Positions 11,377 to 50,944 of a DNA stretch of 64,000 bases are shown in pieces. The translations under genes and the position numbers were made by a program. Position 1 is the stretch's first letter. Each line of letters begins with the position of its first letter. The DNA is from Meghimatium bilineatum. Lineage: Eukaryota > Mollusca > Gastropoda > Stylommatophora > Philomycidae. The stretch spans positions 7,378,140 through 7,442,139 of the forward strand of contig CM067298.1 in NCBI GenBank assembly GCA_034231615.1. Direction: 5' to 3'. The notes under the pieces are model-generated. The model was not told where the DNA came from. It did no database searches and saw only the letters and a list, made by a program, of their open reading frames with translations.

Positions 11377-11556
11377 GCTAAATTAAGTTGGACCCCTTCG
11401 TCATGTGTTATGGTTATGGTTTGACTTTCAATTGGTTACTATTTATATACTTGGAATCGCATGTCAAAATTAGCCAAGGCGATTCCAAAAATTTAAATAG
11501 TAACCAACTGAAAATCAAACAATAATCAAAACGAATAGAGTTCAACTTGATTTAGC
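11377..11556. repeat. Imperfect inverted repeat, foldback/MITE-like
   Basis: Left arm begins GCTAAATTAAGTTGGA (11377) and runs to about 11460. The right arm ends CAACTTGATTTAGC (11556) and starts GCGATTCC at 11479. Best-matched segments are TTGGTTACTATTTA and GGAATCGC with their complements. The arms are about 80 bp with several mismatches and a small loop. There is no coding capacity. No convincing TSD was found, so a non-autonomous DNA transposon is possible but unproven. Confidence 0.6.
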
Positions 11557-14673: not shown

Positions 14674-17600
14674 CTATATCTGCAATTCTGTCTCCTTAAT
14701 AAAACTCACTGTCTTTTGTAGTTCATACAGTGTCCCATAGAGCTTTGATTCCAGTGTTGTTTCCTCTGGCCAATATGTCTGCCTCAGAGTTTCATGCTCA
14801 GAACACTCTTGAAGTGTATGTTTGGCCCTCTGTACTGCCTGTCCACATGTACACATGGCCGTGTTGCCAATCTTGAACTTTGTATACATGTGACTGCGGA
14901 GTCGGTTGTGTCCTGTTCTGAGACGTAGAATTATAACTTGTTCTGATCTGTTCATAATGTGATAGTCATCTTGTGTTGGTGTTTGTGGCTTTCTTATTGA
15001 CTTGATCATCTGTTTTTTCTGATGGTAGGTGATTGGTATATCTGGTTGATCTTCGGCAGCACCTTCCTTAGCCAGTTGGTCTGCTTTTTCATTTCCTGGT
15101 ATTCCACAGTGAGAGGGTATCCACTGCATGGTTACCCTATACTGGTAAGACAATTCGCTAAGTAGTTTTTTCAAGTCTGTTAGTTTTCCAGACTGGAGAG
15201 CTTGAAGCACTGACCTTGCATCTGTCAGGAATACCACAGGCTGTAGGTCAGAGTTGGAGTTCAGCAGTTTTTTAGCTGCCACAGTAATTGCCTGGATTTC
15301 TGCATCATAATTATTGCAGAATTTTCCTGTCGGTGTTCTGATTGTATCTCTAGGCTTGTGTGGATATTCTATATATACACCTGCACCTCCATTCCTCACA
15401 GCATTCTGTGCTGACCCATCTGTGTATACTCTGACCCATATATCTTGTGGATATTCCTCGTCCAGGAAACTGAGGGTGACTGTCCTCCGCTGCACACTGT
15501 TCTGTTCGTCCTCGCTTAGTATTCCTTTCACATGGGTCTGAATGTATATTGGCATTCCATGCCTTTCACTCCATGGGGTTTGTTCTGGTACAGACCTTAA
15601 GGGGCTGTCAACTTCAGGTAGGTCTGTAAGTTGTCTACGGAGTCGTTTAGCTTGATGGATAAAGCTGCTTCTTTTCAGTCGCCCCATTGCTAGGTTTTGG
15701 AATCTTTCCTTCATTGGATGACTTGGCATACACTGAAACTTTTCCGCTTGAATTAGTACTTTTGTGTCTCTGCGTTCGCCAAGTGTTTGCATTCTTCCCA
15801 TTTTCTGCATCTCTGCTATGGGTGTTGATTTCATTGCTCCCAACATTATTCTAAGTGCCTGGTTTTGCACTTTATCTAGATCTTGTAATGTGGTGTTTGA
15901 TGCAGGACACCACGCAGCTGAACCATATTCCAGGTGTGGTCTTATGCCTTGCTGTGTGAGTATATTCCCACTGGCTCCCCATGAGGTTCCACTTAGTTTT
16001 CTCAGGATAGCTAACTTCCTCCTGGCTTTTGTTGTTGCTTTGTTTATGTGCTGCTTCCATGTCAGCTTATCATCAAAAGTAACTCCGAGGTATGTTGGTT
16101 GTTTGTCTTCTTTCAAGAGCTCTCCGTCTATCTTGATATGACCGGCTTTTTGTTTTGGTGAGAGGGTAAAGAGTGTAGTGCTGCACTTATCTGTGTTAAT
16201 GCTGACACACAATCTATTTGCCCATAAGGTTAGGGCATCGATAGCTCTTTGTATTTGTTTAGTGGCCACTGTCGCATGTTCTTCCGTGCACCAGATCACC
16301 AGGTCGTCAGCATACATTGCCACTTTGATCCCGTGTGGTAGTTAAGCAACTAGGTCATTTATGTAAACCAAGAAAAGTGTGGGTGACAGGACTCCTCCCT
16401 GGGGGACTCCATGACGCAGTAGGACTTTCTTGCTTTTGCGACCATCTAATTGTACCCTGGCTCTTCTATTATGCAGGTATGCTTTTACCCATTTGTACAT
16501 TCTTGAGCTAACCCTGCAATTTCGCAATTTCTTTAGGAGCCCTTCTTTCCAGACCTTATCAAATGCTTTCCTAAGGTCTATCCATGCTGCTAGTACGAGT
16601 TTCTTATCTTGGAAGGCATCCTCAATCTCTTGGGAGAGGTAGGTTGCCTGATCTTCAGTAGAGTAGCACTGTCTGAAACCTGCTTGCTGTGATACCAGAA
16701 GGTTTTCACTTTCAAGGTACCACTGCATCCTAAGATTGATAATGCGTTCCATTGTTTTGCATAGACAGCTTGTGAGGCTGATGGGCCTGTAGTTGGAGAC
16801 TGTGTTGCCATCTTTTCCTGATTTGAGGAGAGGTATCATTATTGCTTCTCTCCATGCCTGTGGTACATTACCTGTGGACCAGCTTGTGTTAAAGATTTGC
16901 AGCAGCTTTGCTCTTGCTGCAATTCCCAGGTTTCTAATCATTTCATTGGACACTCCATCAGCTCCAGGGGACTTTTTCATTTTCAATTTGGATATTGCAT
17001 GCTCCAGTTCTCTCATTGTTATTGGTGCCTCAATGACTTCAGGTATAGGTTCGTCTTGTCCAATGTTTTGCTGGTTCGCTCGAACCTCCTGTTGTTTGTC
17101 TGGGCTGACTTTGACGTTATTGTCTTCTGCAAAGGAATCTGCAAAGTAATCAGCTGCATGTTTACCTGTTAAAATGTTTGTATCTTTATAAAGGGTGATC
17201 CTGGTATTTCTCCCTGTACCTTCATCATTTAGTTGTTTTACAAGTTTCCATAATTTCCTAGTATCTCTTTCTAGGTTCAGCGACTCTGTTTTTTCTTTCC
17301 AGCTGTTCCGTCTGGCTTGTAACTTGGCTCTTTGAAATTTAGCCTTTGTTTGCTGATATTTGTTGTGATGTTCTTGGCTAGGTCTGTTCTCAGCCTGCTT
17401 TCTAGATGTTTCCATCTCATTTTGCAGCTTTTCCAGTTCATCATTCCAGTAGGGTTTGTAGTTTTTGCGTGCCCCCCTGGGTATGGTTTTACTAGCAGCA
17501 TGTAGTATACATCTATTAAATTCACTCACTGCTCTATTGATGTCTTTGTCCAAGTTCATGTCCTTAGCTAGAACACTGGTTAAATGCTGGTACATTTTCC

Positions 17601-18570
17601 AGTCTGCCCTCTTATAGTTCCACCTAGTGAGCGTGCTGCTGTCCTTGGTATATTCATTGTGAATTTCCAGAAATACTGGTCTGTGGTCACTACCCCCAAG
17701 CTGCTTTCCAACGACACGTGTGATGTTCCATTCCAGGCCTGGTGAGTAGAATGCCAGGTCTGGTGTAGAGGTGGTGTGCCATGCTCTCGAGTAGAAGGTT
17801 GGTGAGTCAGCTGGCTGGTTAATAAGAATGAGATTATTTTCATCCTGCCAGCTCTCAAGTTCCTCACCTCTCTTGTCGATATGATCGTAGCCCCAGCTCT
17901 GAGAGTGGCTGTTGAAGTCACCACACACCATAAGCCTTTCTTTATCTGGAATTGTGTCTAGTGCCAATGGTTTATCATTTGGGCAGTAGTAGTTCAGGAG
18001 ATGGAATTCTGCACTGTCTGTTTTTAGGTGGAGCATCTGGTATTCTGCCCCGCCCATGTATACTTCCAGCTGACATGCGCTGATATTGTTTTTAACTAGT
18101 GTCAGAATTCCACCCTTTCGCCTGTCTTTTCGGTCAGATCGGTAGCACTGGTAGCCTCTGATTTTGAAGGCTATGTCGCTGCTGAGGTGTGTTTCTTGGA
18201 TACAGCAAATATTAACTTGTTCTTCACTGAGGACATTTTCAAGTTCCAGTTTTTTGCTGTATCCATCTCTTTTACTGTTGACACCCTCAGCATTCCAGTG
18301 CATTATTTTTATTGGTCGTTTGTTTGTTTGGCCAGTAGCTCTATTCCCTTGCCTCCTGGCTCCTCGGGGCAATTGAGAAGGACTTCCAGTAACTGAGGTT
18401 GGGCCCTTTCGAGGTATAGGGCCCGGCACCGTCCCTGCCTGAACGTCCGCCACAGGGCAGGCACCATAACATTTATTAGATGCAGACATGTTTCCATTGT
18501 GTTTTATGCGTGGCAACCTGATTATCTGTGCGCCTTTTGGCTGGTTGCCTCCGTCTTCAGCACTCTGCAT
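14674..18570 (-). pseudogene. LINE ORF2: endonuclease, RT, RNase H; one in-frame stop
   Basis: A 1298-codon frame from ATG at 18570. Residues about 88-305 form an APE-type endonuclease: MHWNAEGV (Asn93), IQETHL (Glu126), CGDFNSH (Asp218, Asn220) and GGSDHRPV (Asp295, His296) keep the catalytic set. The RT follows from about residue 530: KSPGADGVSNEM, YRPISLTS, DLRKAFDKVW, VPQGGVLSPTLFLVYINDL, then MYADDLVIW with the catalytic Asp pair. RNase H follows with VYTDGSA, DAEIQAI, FLTDARSVLQAL and IPSHCGIPGNEKADQLAKEG, all four acidic residues plus His. The C-terminus has a CCHC-like CTCGQ...HTLQEC knuckle. One TAA stop (16344-16342) falls between INDLVA and LPHGIKVAMYADD; the frame is otherwise continuous, so as it stands the copy cannot make a whole ORF2 protein without readthrough. 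Confidence 0.93.
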
Positions 18571-18682
18571 GCTTGGGCCGGACTATGGTCCTGCTCGAGT
18601 GGGAGTGCCCGACCAGTCTTAGTTTCCAGCCTCTGATGGCTGAACTAAGCCCCATCACCACTTCAAGGTTCTGGCCTCGATG
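18557..18682 (-). pseudogene. 3' end of LINE ORF1, overlapping ORF2
   Basis: A 41-codon open stretch from the truncated 5' end to TGA at 18559-18557. It contains VVMGLSSAIRGWKLRL and RTIVRPKHAEC. The stop lies 14 bp inside ORF2, whose ATG is at 18570, the short ORF1/ORF2 overlap common in I-type LINEs. The other two frames have early stops. No zinc knuckle remains because the element is truncated. Its identity as ORF1 rests on position, not on a recognised domain. Confidence 0.5.
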
Positions 18683-22640: not shown

Positions 22641-23443
22641 CACAAGACATATTATGGGTCAGAGTATACACAGATGGGTAAGCACATAATGCAGTGAGGA
22701 ATGAAGGTGCAGGTGTATATATAGAATATCCACACAAGTCTAGAGATACAATCAGAACACCAACAGGAAAATTCTGCAATAATTATGATGCAGATATCCA
22801 GGCAATTAGGATGGCAGCAGAAAATCTGCTTAACGCCAACCCTGGCCCACAAAAGTGGTATTCCTGACAGATGCTATGTCAGTGATTCAAGCTCTCCAGT
22901 CTGGAAAACCAATATACTTAACAAAAACAACTTAATGAGCTGTCTTACCAGTATATGGTAACTATACAGTGGATACCCTCTCACTGTGGAACACTAGGAA
23001 ATGACAAAGCAGACCAACTGGTTAAGGAAAGTACCGCCGAAGACCATCCAGATATACCAATCACCTACCATCAGAAAAAGCAGATGGTAAAGTCAATAAG
23101 AAAGCCACAAACACCAACACAAGATGACTATCACATTATGAACAGATCAGAGCAAGTTATAATTCTACGTCTCAGAACAGGACACAACCGACTTTGACTC
23201 CGCAGTCAAATGTACACACATTTCAAGATTGGCAACACGGCCATGTGTACATGTGGACAGGCAGCACAAAGCACTTGAAGATTGTTCTGAGTATGAAACG
23301 CTGAGGCCGACATATTGGTCAGAGAAAACAACACTGGAATTAAATCTCTATGGGCCACTGTGTGAACTACAAAAGACAGTGAATTTTATTCAGAAGACAG
23401 AAAACAGATAAAGACATATTTCAAGTGAACGAAAGAAGGAGAA
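22641..23443 (+). mobile_element. I/Nimb-type LINE, 5'-truncated copy (RNase H to 3' end)
   Basis: Same family as the 4-kb LINE at 14641-18684, on the opposite strand. It starts inside ORF2 at the RNase H domain (VRVYTDG, RNEGAGVYIEYPHK, TPTGKFCNNYDADIQAI) and runs through IQWIPSHCGTLGNDKADQL, QTPTQDDYHIMNRSEQVI, RLRTGHNRL and the knuckle to the shared 3' end TTCAAGTGAACGAAAGAAG. Stops, small indels and substitutions split it into several frames, so it is older than the 14.6-kb copy. No clear TSD seen. Confidence 0.9.
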
Positions 23444-44275: not shown

Positions 44276-45236
44276 GTTCGGATGGGGACGTTATTATTCT
44301 TTTAAAGATTAGTTTGAGTCATAGTGTCGCTGAAGACCATTAAATTGTAAATACACCGAACAAAGCAAGCATACACCAAGGGACAGCAAAGCAAAATCAA
44401 AGATATATATGATAATATATCCATCCTAAATGTTGCAGGGAATTCTATGCCAGAATTTGACGTTTTAGTCATCTTACGACATAGATGTCACCCTCCCTCT
44501 CATTGCCATTAAGCCGTCCGGTTTTTTGTTCAAGAACTCATAGTTACACAGTCTACTGTTGGCGAAAGTCAAATTCCAACGCATAAGTTTTCCTATCTCA
44601 AAGACATGGTTGTGTTCAGCGGGGTTTATGGATGCATGTTATGTCCCCGAAAGAAGGCATGCCACTGCTGCAATATACCAAGATCATCATGTCCTTCCAG
44701 GAGTGCAGCATATGCGGCTGGGTCAACTAGTTCATCATTGTTCTGTAACATCTGTCGACACATCTACAGTAATGATGCACCTAGCATTTTCTTATACCTA
44801 GGTGTCTGTAACAAAAGTTACAATATCTGCAGTAATGATACACCTTGCATGAAACATTGTCACATTTAGTGACAATGATAATTGTCACATGTAGTGACAA
44901 TGATACTTATACAGATGACGTGTTGTCACATGTATTAACAATGTCATTTATACAGGTGAGGGTTCTCAGCCCATCCGCTAACTTTTCTTATTCGCCTCGT
45001 GAGACATGGAAAGAAGACAGTGGTCATATTCTTTGCAACGTGAACTAAAAGTCGAAGCCCTGATTGCTACACCGACAATACAAAGAGATAGAACTGGTTG
45101 CTCGTAACAGAAATAAAGGTTCCCCGAGACTACGATTTCTAACTCCTCCGATATACGTATATGTATATTCAGTCGTGTGAACGTCAATTAATTAAAAGTT
45201 CCCAATTCATTTGTCGCTTTTTGCTCTGAACGTGTT
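44276..45236. other. Unassigned stretch
   Basis: Short overlapping frames at 44559-44870 include CMLCPRKKACHCCNIP, cysteine-rich but in a frame with no supporting splice sites or family. A degenerate 30-bp repeat with GTCACATGTAGTGACAATGA occurs at 44860-44955. Confidence 0.35.
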
Positions 45237-45266
45237 CTTGATAAAGGCGTTTTAGTCGAAACGTTG
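45237..45266 (+). ncRNA. Hammerhead/Penelope-like terminal motif
   Basis: CTTGATAAAGGCGTTTTAGT followed by CGAAACGTTG. It has the box 1-like (C)TTGATAA, a short stem GGC...GTC, box 2 GAAA and ACGTTG. The G of CTGATGA is A here, so cleavage is unlikely, but the order is that of Penelope-like element terminal repeats. Confidence 0.4.
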
Positions 45267-46004
45267 ATTTATATGTGTTATGTGTGTTTCCAAATAATTA
45301 ACAAAACTTAATTATCCAGTGTAACTTTCGTCCAAACGTTTGATGGCTACGCGATATCACAAATTGTTTGCATATGTGTTTTGCTGCGGCATGTCAACTC
45401 CCTAAAAATTACAAGGAAATCGGGACATTAAAAAAAAAGAACACAAGTTCTATAAAGAATGTCCCAGAATACACATATCTTTATATTTGTTGACTGTATT
45501 AATTCACTCAATGAATTTATTTACACATTCAGAATTGTTTGTTTAATTAGAATTATAAATAATCCAGTCTGTGACTGAAATATCACAAGATTAATATGTC
45601 TTTTGTGTGACCAATCGATATGGGGATTTCATTTGGGAGGCCAATCACATTACCGGTAGCTCTTGAAATGTTGCTCATTGCAAAAATTCTGACAGGCTCC
45701 TTAGTAAACAGATTTTGTTACCAGAATAGTGCAATCGATTTAGAGTATCGATTTGTCAAGTTCAGGTAGGAACACGATGTGGAAATAGAGATGTGGTTAG
45801 TGTGTAGGGGAATTAAGAAGGAAGGACAAATGAAAAAAGTATGGTATTTAAGCAGTAGTGAGGCAGAAGAGTGTTGTAGAGTGCCGGATATAAACATCAT
45901 CCCTAGAATATCCTGTAAAGATGGGCTGCTATGGTTTGCTGTCTCTCGGGTCTTGGCTAGGGAATGATTGATTTCTTGGTTCACATTTTCAAAGAAGATC
46001 CACG
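45267..46004. other. Unassigned stretch
   Basis: No recognised gene. Two overlapping opposite-strand frames at 45718-45984 of under 90 codons are not supported. May include decayed sequence of the element carrying the preceding motif. Confidence 0.4.
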
Positions 46005-46016
46005 TTAATAGACGTG
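46005..46016. repeat. Target-site duplication, left (palindromic element)
   Basis: TTAATAGACGTG, repeated exactly at 46799-46810. Confidence 0.85.
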
Positions 46017-46353
46017 TAGTAATGCAAAATGATGTAAAAAGGTTACTAAAACACTTACCTAGCCTATTAATAAAAATATATTTTTAAGAAAAAAACCAAA
46101 AAACATACAATAAAACTAAACAGGACAATTCTCAACGTATCGGCTCAAATTGAACCTTTTTCAAGAGACAAACAACAGAAAACGACAAAATAAAAAAATA
46201 AATAGATGTCTATATTTCATCAAGCCCTCGTCTCCATAATAGCGCAGGGATGGCAACGCATCTAGTCAAAGTGAAAATGCGTGCATTCATTATAAACAAA
46301 CCGAAAGTGGGAAATTAGAGACACTATAGATGAGTGCAAGAATAATAAAAGAA
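46017..46353 (+). repeat. Left arm of 337-bp inverted repeat
   Basis: Begins TAGTAATGCAAAATGATG and ends AATAATAAAAGAA. It pairs with 46394-46730; mismatches lie at the bases opposite 46623 (G/A) and 46449 (A/G). Confidence 0.97.
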
Positions 46354-46393
46354 AAAGATAAAGATAAGAAAAATACCCCTTTTGTCACTCATA

Positions 46394-46730
46394 TTCTTTT
46401 ATTATTCTTGCACTCATCTATAGTGTCTCTAATTTCCCACTTTCGGTCTGTTTATAATGAATGCACGCATTTTCACTTTGACTAGATGCGTTGCCATCCC
46501 TGCGCTATTATGGAGACGAGGGCTTGATGAAATATAGACATCTATTTATTTTTTTATTTTGTCGTTTTCTGTTGTTTGTCTCTTGAAAAAGGTTCAATTT
46601 GAGCCGATACGTTGAGAATTGTTCTGTTTAGTTTTATTGTATGTTTTTTGGTTTTTTTCTTAAAAATATATTTTTATTAATAGGCTAGGTAAGTGTTTTA
46701 GTAACCTTTTTACATCATTTTGCATTACTA
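46394..46730 (-). repeat. Right arm of 337-bp inverted repeat
   Basis: Reverse complement of 46017-46353 at about 99.4 percent identity by direct comparison. Confidence 0.97.
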
Positions 46731-46798
46731 TTTGTTCATTAGGTTACTGCGGCACCATCCACTTTGTCGGACACCCTCTGGCCATTTGGTTATTTATA

Positions 46799-46810
46799 TT
46801 AATAGACGTG
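46799..46810. repeat. Target-site duplication, right (palindromic element)
   Basis: Exact second copy of TTAATAGACGTG. Confidence 0.85.
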
Positions 46811-46967
46811 TCTTATTGGCACTGTAACCGCTGGTATGATCTTCTATCTAATGGAGTCTATATGTGGTATGCCTGACACTACTGGTAAAGAATAAAATCT
46901 GGTCTACTGAACAGCAAAACCGTAGAAGAGGCACATCTTAGTTCAGTTTCCTTCTTGAGAAGATGAC

Positions 46968-46978
46968 TAGTAGCTTGT
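46968..46978. repeat. Target-site duplication, left (47-kb LINE)
   Basis: TAGTAGCTTGT, repeated exactly at 47621-47631. Confidence 0.75.
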
Positions 46979-46988
46979 TAGTTAGACC

Positions 46989-47019
<31 letters not shown>

Positions 47020-47620
47020 CGTCGGATCAGCATCACTGCAAACTGGACACGTCCATAGTTGCTCTGATCTCTCCTTGAGTGTATCCGCCATCACACTTCT
47101 GCTGACAGTACCGGTCCTATGCTGGTTGACCATCATTCTTCTGCGCCCTCCAAAGTGTTCACCTCTAGCAACACCGCATTTCAATCCCTGATCTTTAATC
47201 CTAGCCATTGAAAAGGAATCATCATCCACATTATTATCAATCTCGCGTGTTATATCTCTTAAGGAATTCAAAACGTCAGCGCAATCCATTGCCCCATCGC
47301 CTTGTGCCACAATCGCGCATGATACCAGTTCATCCGCTCTTTCATTGCCTCGAACACCCACATGTCCCGGCACGAAAATAAATGTAACAACTTTCAGGCT
47401 CGCCTTTCTCAAGGCGTCAATCCACTGTTCGCGAACGAGACCAACTTGTGCCTTCTTAATCATATTCATAGAGTCACTCAAGATGCAGACCTGCGTTACC
47501 TTCGGTGTGCGTAGCCACTAAAATGCCCTGGTCACCGCCATAGTCTCCATGGTCATACTACTCGTAGTGACCGCAAAGGCAGTAGTATTAATGTAGTATT
47601 AATATATAGTAGTATTAATT
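46979..47620 (-). mobile_element. RNase H LINE, 5'-truncated, with TSDs
   Basis: Frame 47481-47011 reads MSDSMNMIKKAQ (RNase H motif 3 region), FIFVPGHVGVRGNERADELV (motif 4, His and Asp), then a C-terminal domain with GGRRRMMVNQHRTGTVSRS, LKERSEQLWTCPVCSDADPT. The last part is a CxxC-containing tail shared with 50726-50934. The 3' end is a (TAAC)n tail, seen as TTAG repeats at 46979-47020. TSDs TAGTAGCTTGT at 46968-46978 and 47621-47631 mark the limits. The 156-codon frame without stops indicates a fairly recent insertion. The family resembles, but is distinct from, the one at 25.1 kb. Confidence 0.85.
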
Positions 47621-47631
47621 AGTAGCTTGTC
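47621..47631. repeat. Target-site duplication, right (47-kb LINE)
   Basis: Exact second copy of TAGTAGCTTGT. Confidence 0.75.
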
Positions 47632-47714
47632 GTATTGCGCTACAATTGTAAAAGTCGTCGTCTTCAGCAATTACGAGGAATCTGAGCACTACTTGTGCCA
47701 CCTTCAGTTGCTGT

Positions 47715-47905
47715 GTGTGTGTGTGCTATCCTTTGTTCTGTGCAATCCTTTGTTGCAGTGTGTGCAATCCTTTGTTGCAGTGTGTGCAATCCTGTGTTGC
47801 AGTGTGTGCAATCCTTTGTTGCAGTGTGTGTAATCCTTTGTTGCAGTGTGTGCAATCCTTTGGTGCAGTGTTTGCAATCCTTTGTTGCAGTGTGTGCAAT
47901 TGCAA
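47715..47905. repeat. 22-bp minisatellite, first unit type
   Basis: About eight copies of GTGTGCAATCCTTTGTTGCA plus GT. It changes gradually into the next array; both share a TCCTYTGTTG core, so they are one lineage. Confidence 0.95.
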
Positions 47906-49775
47906 TCCTCAGTTATTATATATCATCCTATGTTTGTGTTTGTCATCTTCTGTTGTTGTGCGATCCTTTGTTGTATGGCATCCTGTATTGCTGTTATTCT
48001 TGTTGTTGCTGTGCGATCCTATGTTGGTGTTTACTAGTCTCTGTTGCTGTTGTGACATCCTCTATTTTTGTGTCATCTTCTGTTATTGTTGTGCCATCAT
48101 CTGTGTTATGTTTTCCTCTGTTGTTGTAAGTCATCCTTTGTTGTAAGTCATCCTCTGTTGTTGTAGTTGTATGTCATCATCTGTTGCTGTTGTAAGTTAT
48201 CATCTGTTGCTGTTGTAAGTTATCCTCTGTTCCTGTTTAAGTCATCCTCTGTTCCTGTTTAAGTCATCCTCTATTCCTGTTGTAAGTCATCCTCTGTTGT
48301 CGTAAGTCATCCTCTATTGTTTTAAGTCACGCTCTGTAGTTGTAAGTCATCCTCTGTTGTTGTTTGTCATCCTCTATTCCTGTTGTAAGTCATCCTGTGT
48401 TGTTGTACGTCATCCGGTGTTGTTGTTGTAAGTCAACCTATGTTGCTGTTTAAGTCATCCTCTGTTGCTATTGCAAGTCATCATCTGTTGCTGTTGTAAA
48501 CCATCCTCTGTTGCTGTTTAAGTCATCATATGTTGCTGTTGTAAGTCATCTTCTGTTGCTGTTGTAAGTAATCCTCTGTTGCTGTTTAAGTCATCCTGTG
48601 TTGCTGTTCAAATCATTCTCTGTTATTGTTGTAAGTCATCCTCTGTTGTTTTTTAAATCATCATCTGTTGCTTTTTATGTCATCCTCTATTGATGTTTAT
48701 GTCATCCTCTGTTGCTGTTTATGTCATCATCTGTTGCTGTTTATGTCATCATATGTTGTTGTTTATGTCATCATCTGTTGCTGTTTAAGTCATCCTCTGT
48801 TGCTGTTCAAGTCATCCTCTGTTGCTTTTTAAGTCATCATCTGTTGCTATTTATGTCATCCTCTGTTGCTGTTTATGTCATCATCTGTTGCTATTTTTGT
48901 CATCATCTGTTGCTGTTTAAGTCATCCTCTGTTGATTTTAAGTCATCATCTGTTGCTGTTTATGTCATCCTTTGTTGCTGTTTATGTCATCATATGTTGC
49001 TGTTTATGTCATCATCAGCTGCTGTTTATGACATCATCTGTTGCTGTTTATGTCATCATCTGTTGCTGTTTATGTCATCGTCTGTTGCTGTTTATGTCAT
49101 CCTCTGTTGATGTTTATTTCATAATATGTTGCTGTTTATGTCATCCTCTGTTGCTGTTTATGTCATCCTCTGTTGCTGTTTATGTCATACTGTGTTGCTG
49201 TTTATGTCATCCTCTGTTGCTTTTTATGTCATTCTCTGTAGCTGTTTATATCATCATCTGTTGCTGTTTATGTCATCATCATTTGCTGTTTATGTCATCC
49301 TCTGTTGCTTTCTATGTCATCATCTGTTGTTGTTTATGTCATCCTCTGTTGCTGTTTATGTCATCATCTGTTGCTGTTCATGTCATCCTATGTTGTTTTT
49401 TATGTCATATGTTGCTGTTTATGTCACTATCTGTTGCTGTTTATGTCATCATCTGTTGCTGTTTATGTCATCCTCTGTTGCTGTTCTTGTAATTCTCTGT
49501 TGCTGTTCATGTCATCCTCTGTTGCTGTTTATGTCATCCTCTGTTGCTGTTTATGTCATCATCTGTTGTTGTTTATGACATCCTCTATTGCTGTTTATGT
49601 CATCCTCTGTTGCTGTTTATGTCATCCTCTGTTGCTGTTTACTTTATCCTCTGTTGCTATTTATGTCATCCTCTGTTGCTGTTTATGTCATCATCTGTTG
49701 CTGTTTATGTCATTCTCTGTTGCTGTTTATGTCATCCTATGTTGCTGTTTATGTCATCCTCTGTATTTTGTTGTG
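47906..49775. repeat. 20-22-bp minisatellite, 1.9-kb array
   Basis: About 85 copies of CTGTTGCTGTTTATGTCATC plus CT or AT. The left part (47906-48700) has mixed TTGTAAGTCATCC units; the right part (48700-49760) is homogeneous. Three staggered frames of 130-390 codons run through it and repeat CCCLCHPLLLFMSSSVAVYV-like peptides; these are by-products. Confidence 0.97.
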
Positions 49776-50725: not shown

Positions 50726-50934
50726 CATTTGTTAAGGGAGCTTAGTTTGAAATGTGGTTTCTCTAGAAAGGAGCGGTTTTGTGGGCGAGAAAGAATGATA
50801 GTCAATCAACGGCGTACTGGGACCGTCAATCGACGTGTAATGGCGGCTATACTCAAGGAGACATCTGAGCACATATGGACTTGTCCAGAGTGCAGTGACC
50901 ATGATCCAACGAGTAACCAATTAACTAACTAACT
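50726..50934 (+). mobile_element. RNase H LINE family, 209-bp 3' stub with TSDs
   Basis: Reads LRELSLKCGFSRKERFCGRE then RMIVNQRRTGTVNRRVM, LKETSEHIWTCPECSDHDPT and an AACT-repeat tail, matching the C-terminus of the copy at 46979-47620. TSDs AATCAATGA lie at 50717-50725 and 50935-50943. Strong 5' truncation leaves about 65 codons with no internal stop. Confidence 0.8.
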
Positions 50935-50944
50935 AATCAATGAA

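Follow-up and report, generated by a model that had tools for sequence, protein, structure and literature searches.

A palindromic insertion in the window

The stretch of DNA analysed here, referred to as the window, comprises 64,000 nt of Meghimatium bilineatum contig CM067298.1 (positions 7,378,140 to 7,442,139, forward strand; GCA_034231615.1), within a host genome of 1.61 Gb in 32 contigs. The longest inverted repeat given by a repeat search of the window is a palindrome with arms at 46017-46353 and 46394-46730, which are reverse complements with two mismatches in 337 bp (left-arm coordinates 46124 and 46299). The arms are separated by 40 bp (46354-46393), a 68-bp tail (46731-46798) is present on one side only, and TTAATAGACGTG is found exactly at both 46005-46016 and 46799-46810, with the following base identical too. 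These features had been described as a near-perfect palindrome in a first-pass annotation, and all were confirmed. Of 43,890 window positions outside tandem arrays, six have a 12-mer that is repeated 714 to 864 bases further along, two of the six being this site, and the predicted DNA fold of the insertion has an energy of -396.9 kcal/mol compared to -71.8 +/- 6.2 kcal/mol for 20 shuffles. The palindrome and its flanking repeat are not due to chance.

Comparison with other copies in the genome, which we assign below to a family of Penelope-like elements (PLEs), changed how the parts are read. The 40 bp between the arms had been taken for a loop. While the length is correct, 37 of these bases prolong the left arm, in agreement with other copies, and only ATA is extra at the junction. 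At both mismatches it is the right arm that has changed: there, the left arm is identical to all 41 comparable arms of other copies. The features are as follows, with start sites A and B being the putative reverse-transcription (RT) start sites discussed below.

46005-46016, plus strand: left target-site duplication (TSD), TTAATAGACGTG; exact match to 46799-46810, with the chance estimate given above
46017-46390, minus strand: untailed arm, PLE 3´ untranslated region end as far as start site B (374 bp); the inner 37 bp were formerly read as loop
46391-46393, no strand: arm junction, three extra bases (ATA), from comparison with other copies
46394-46730, plus strand: tailed arm, 337 bp, the same PLE sequence inverted (head-to-head); holds both arm differences
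46731-46798, plus strand: 68-bp one-sided tail, the sequence between putative RT start sites B and A; a tandem copy continues from it towards the next ORF frame
46799-46810, plus strand: right TSD, TTAATAGACGTG; exact match to 46005-46016

The insertion is made up of two 5´-truncated copies of one PLE 3´ end, placed head-to-head inside a 12-bp TSD. Its arms reach back only 374 and 337 bp from start site B, so the insertion is truncated and lacks coding sequence; it is most likely dead, with no host function. No second convincing arm copy was found elsewhere in the 64-kb window, the insertion DNA gave no match to phages and plasmids, and a 29-mer from one arm gave none to viral contigs. An Rfam match to the plant miRNA MIR1888 (46.2 bits, cut-off 72) was dismissed as expected of a long AT-rich hairpin, and a single match to a solved structure (E=0.22) was regarded as meaningless.

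The surroundings are rich in other repeats. Tandem arrays (minisatellites) detected by Tandem Repeats Finder fill ~19.4 kb of the window. A GTTA-repeat stretch lies 166 bp from the PLE insertion and flanks an RNase H fragment of another LINE (46977-47517), which has an inverted relative at 50747-50936. A nearly whole LINE with endonuclease, RT and RNase H in two adjoining open frames occupies 14674-18582 on the minus strand, with an inverted relative of ~90% identity at 22653-23443, and a small MITE-like inverted repeat (54-nt arms, 85% complementary, 18-nt loop) is located at 11407-11532.

The arms belong to a dispersed Penelope-like family

A search of the host genome with one arm, which the first-pass annotation had suggested together with a Penelope origin, gave at least 41 matches at no fewer than 33 loci (40 of 1188 candidates scored), and all 41 matches listed cover the full 337 bp at 99-100% identity. 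These 33 loci, including the window, make up sample 1, which is biased to near-identical, young copies; the remaining 32 loci were extracted and read. Within the stretches read, two arms are present at 22 of the 33 loci and one arm at 11, single-arm status being judged in ~8 kb so that a second arm could lie farther away. An older extra arm in L034 (95% over 453 bp) was excluded from these counts. Sample 2 consists of 15 two-armed insertions picked by ORF pairs, of which 14 are distinct, as L070/L071 duplicate L042/L043 and were entered once in the total of 60 insertions considered below. Genome-wide, the outer arm end, as an exact 16-mer, has 1112 matches compared to 2 for a reversed control, and a longer pattern reaching into the tail has 532 compared to 0, both counts including tandem boundaries as well as insertion ends. 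A third sample, on contig C1, consists of the 100 matches listed first out of the 1112. Tails were detected by alignment in samples 1 and 2 and by an exact 33-mer on C1.

Several relatives are longer than the window copy, which is 3´ untranslated sequence only, and encode RT and GIY-YIG in one ORF. The ORF of L011 (403 aa) has a YIDD motif and a GIY-YIG-like C-terminus, with YIDD and YIG spotted by eye. A 952-aa frame in L041 matches RVT_1 at 438-607 (E=0.0024) and GIY-YIG at 856-893 (E=0.0017), both Pfam scores being under the curated cut-offs. A protein search of the genome gave at least 103 ORF copies (103 of 23,731 candidates scored). Neighbours less than 12 kb apart among the 103 listed are head-to-head in 15 cases, on the same strand in 10 and tail-to-tail in none, and the 10 same-strand neighbours are spaced by 4386-4408 bp, corresponding to 4.4-kb tandem units. 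One tandem junction was read, in L041.

The traits of PLEs, as given in the portions of PMC11167929, PMC3846280 and PMC8969392 drawn on here, are RT followed by GIY-YIG in a single ORF, tandem copies, TSDs, 5´ truncation, inverted copies and a short one-sided tail. The family described here has pseudo-LTR tandems, variable TSDs, 5´ truncation and one-tailed inverted copies, and its membership in PLEs is well supported. The Penelope origin was thus borne out by dispersed copies with common outer ends, by TSDs that differ between copies and by the linkage of some copies to an RT/GIY-YIG ORF.

The Penelope guess is correct, though the basis given for it, hammerhead-type ends, was not supported. 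A hairpin and GATACGTTG are indeed present once per arm, GGTTCAATTTGAGCC and GATACGTTG each having one occurrence in each window arm. CTGANGA is the core motif of the hammerhead, and it is absent from both strands of the window insertion; Rfam, searched up to E=5, detected no hammerhead in window 45000-48000 or in the 5.2-kb L041 tandem stretch; a divergent motif could have escaped both searches. The hammerhead motif is known from other PLEs, and the portions of PMC11167929, PMC3846280 and PMC8969392 used here do not treat it as defining.

The one-tail rule in two-armed insertions

Across the three samples, 57 of 60 distinct head-to-head insertions have the 68-bp tail at exactly one end, three have no exact tail and none has two. 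In sample 1 the tail is on one side only in all 22 two-armed insertions, and sample 2 gave a single tail in 15 of 15 (14 distinct); in two of these, the alignment at the untailed end stops 9-15 nt before site B is reached. The 100 end matches on C1 resolve into 28 head-to-head pairs, 34 single ends and three tandem groups, with no tail-to-tail pair. One exact tail was detected in 25 of the 28 pairs, none in three, for which the exact 33-mer does not distinguish a mutated from an absent tail, and both in none, a distribution that departs from independent ends (P=1e-5).

The pattern holds over a wide range of lengths. The smallest insertion read, L072, is 142 bp and consists of the tail, two 35-bp arms and four extra bases, with a TSD of 13-16 bp whose edge is ambiguous against the tail; L073 is 383 bp, with a single tail and a 13-bp TSD. 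A further insertion, L027, is laid out differently: an untailed arm of 1073 bp is joined to no more than the final 14 nt of the tail, with the TSD coming next (the tail-end match was made by eye). We also noted a locus on C1 (G000, 79820317-79834300) at which PLE tandem arrays lie head-to-head, with two end motifs one way and three the other, and a tail at one outer end only. In a limited search of titles and abstract openings on PLE tails, inversions, self-priming and dual priming, the one-tail rule was not stated.

The tail lies between two putative start sites

In the tandem copy of L041, the arm end passes directly into the 68 bp, and the next ORF frame follows 69 nt further. Given this continuity of arm, tail and ORF, the tail is the stretch between two possible ends rather than extra sequence. 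The two points carry like motifs, ACTA/TTTGTTCATTAG at B and TATA/TTTGTCTTTCAG at A (the slash marks the end), with the shared pattern TA/TTTGT, and sites A and B look like two reverse-transcription start sites. For a PLE studied in vitro, the tail matches the stretch separating two observed RT start sites, and the purified enzyme cleaves and extends both target strands (PMC11167929). Here, the 3´ end of the target primer finishes in A in 13 of 21 cases at B ends and 14 of 21 at A ends, a count that omits L018; such ends would be able to base-pair with the run of U in the RNA. Reading the 68-bp tail for ORFs gave nothing, and its predicted fold is not significant (z +0.80). Start site B is near the loop of a predicted hairpin (L041 1920-2110), which is not significant compared to shuffles (z -1.34).

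Target sites, inner ends and arm sequences

Exact TSDs of 8-16 bp flank all 22 two-armed insertions of sample 1, some adjoining a few extra bases. In sample 2, a script found TSDs of 6-12 bp in 12 of 15 and none of 6 bp or more in the other three. Among the 11 single-arm insertions, which include one rearranged locus (L032), seven have a matching 7-19 bp repeat at or near the inner end and four do not. L012 lies inside a 42-bp tandem array whose insertion-free units hold the TSD sequence once or altered; these units act as a built-in empty site and indicate that the doubling goes with the insertion.

The two arms of a palindrome are often unequal. In 12 of the 22 palindromes read whole the untailed arm exceeds the tailed one in length, in five of these by 80 bp or less; where the excess is above 80 bp, the untailed arm is longer in seven and the tailed arm in three. 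The inner ends lie no more than 25 bp apart in 9 of the 22, compared to a mean of 1.4 in shuffles, and 0 of 100,000 shuffles reach nine; in the remaining 13 they differ by 37 to 1904 bp. L031 and L036, which have rearranged inner parts, entered this test by their outer arm lengths and are outside the set of 20 junctions listed. Those 20 show either overlaps (1-8 bp) or inserts (2-29 bp), some of them locally templated, which is the kind of trace expected of end joining or fold-back synthesis. The pair of inner ends is unique to each of the 22 palindromes, so that the palindrome looks to have been made at insertion rather than copied as a palindrome.

Of 141 diagnostic comparisons at 10 single-base sites (one 6-bp deletion was left out), 139 show the same base in both arms of an insertion, the two discordant ones being in L012 and L030, compared to 26% discordance for re-paired arms; 0 of 10,000 shuffles were as low as observed. 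Of the private variants, 23 are common to both arms of an insertion and 55 are restricted to one arm. The likeness of the window arms was at first ascribed to a recent origin or to gene conversion; conversion is possible, but it is unnecessary as an explanation.

A double-ended insertion model and its alternatives

We propose, as the reading that we consider probable, that the palindromes arise by double-ended PLE insertion, in which each cut strand would prime cDNA at its own start site and the cDNAs would then be joined. The element's endonuclease would make a staggered cut in the target, and each target 3´ end would prime its own cDNA. One cDNA would start at site A, keeping the tail, and the other at site B, 68 nt upstream. 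Both would extend a variable distance towards the 5´ end of the RNA before their inner ends are joined. Separate priming by each target end, on RNA and at its own site, would readily account for the longer untailed arms and the layout of L027.

An alternative that starts from a single cDNA is self-priming (snapback), whereby the target-primed cDNA folds at its 3´ end and copies itself into the second arm; it has been proposed for Penelope, on an antisense template, in the part of PMC3846280 consulted. The close inner ends in 9 of 22 palindromes, the source variants common to both arms and the short overlaps or locally templated inserts at junctions are all in keeping with such a fold-back. The tail is where it fails: an untailed first cDNA would be unable to serve as template for a tail, and a copied arm should never exceed its template, yet in 12 of 22 palindromes the longer arm is the untailed one; a tailed first cDNA should give two tails, which none of the 60 insertions was seen to have. 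The layout of L027 contradicts it as well. Self-priming by itself does not explain the single tail, and we regard it as an unlikely account of the palindromes, but because close inner ends are expected of it, a mixture of both routes is possible. Somewhat less likely again is a symmetric insertion whose arms later underwent gene conversion with each other, along with central deletions, which would give arm likeness and unequal lengths. Long palindromes are unstable, and the inner ends lie more than 80 bp apart in 10 of 22, with the longer arm on either side; the 23 insertion-private variants found in both arms also fit. This history leaves the one-tail rule unexplained, however, and the 55 private variants of single arms persist despite it.

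The remaining alternatives would have the palindrome exist before, or apart from, the insertion event. Transcription of a palindromic source and its insertion elsewhere as a finished foldback unit would account for many dispersed palindromes with common outer ends, and the first-pass annotation had favoured a self-moving foldback element. This is very improbable, given that no two of the 22 palindromes share a pair of inner ends and that single-arm and tandem copies coexist with them. MITEs and foldback DNA transposons have long inverted repeats at both very ends, little coding sequence and a TSD of fixed length. The family resembles them in its long, near-perfect inverted repeats and its scarcity of coding sequence, whereas its TSDs vary in length (8-16 bp), its one-sided tail means that the inverted repeats are not at both very ends, and its relatives include longer copies with an RT/EN ORF inside, 4.4-kb tandems and 5´-truncated single-arm copies; a DNA transposon of this kind hardly merits consideration. 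A mariner-like MITE with a TA TSD, suggested by the arms ending in TA, was dropped, as the TSDs of the relatives are 8-16 bp and lie outside the tail. Chimeric long reads can produce palindromes, but TSDs, junctions and lengths that differ across many loci make an assembly artefact just as far-fetched.

A further step would extend double-ended insertion to a single template: both cDNAs might, though we are less sure of this, copy the same RNA molecule, with two enzymes on one template. One shared RNA would account for the single use of each start site, for the source variants common to both arms and for the tendency of inner ends to coincide. We infer this step from two starts to one RNA. The concordant arms would also fit two RNAs of one source locus, or gene conversion, and the shared source and coupled ends could possibly stem from two starts with later copying from one arm into the other through the junction. 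In its full form, which we put forward tentatively as slightly less likely to be right than wrong, one RNA would be copied twice by two enzymes in one complex, a convoy with dedicated starts 68 nt apart, often giving a one-tailed head-to-head palindrome in which the tail is the signature of the start pair.

Comparison with known Penelope-like elements and implications

The closest parallels are among PLEs. As in the Adineta vaga Penelope families (Pen2a_Av and others), to the extent that they are covered in the part of PMC3846280 drawn on, there are inverted terminal copies (mostly head-to-head in A. vaga), a tail at one inverted pLTR, TSDs (9 and 10 bp in two A. vaga examples), partial tandems and palindromic junctions. 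The A. vaga tail is 31 bp and optional, whereas here it is 68 bp, lies upstream of the ORF frame and is present once in 57 of 60 two-armed insertions; in further contrast to that account, many insertions here are palindromes only, without an ORF (PMC3846280). Poseidon PAc of Anolis carolinensis likewise has RT and a C-terminal GIY-YIG in one ORF, tandem repeats and a tail equivalent to the interval between two RT start sites, which are putative here. It differs in a tail of 30-40 bp, a main RT start inside the ORF and the presence of a hammerhead, none having been found here (PMC11167929).

The window copy is ordinary in content, and the family is a rich record of PLE palindrome formation. Inverted PLE copies and the tail were known before as oddities, and it is the one-tail rule that is the interesting part. 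With 1112 end matches in one family, a figure that includes tandem boundaries, palindrome formation becomes a counting question. One tail per two-armed insertion, two starts with like motifs, arms from a single source and coupled inner ends are constraints for any model. If true, convoy copying would set PLE integration apart as a mode of its own, different from that of LINEs, in which the first strand is followed by the second.
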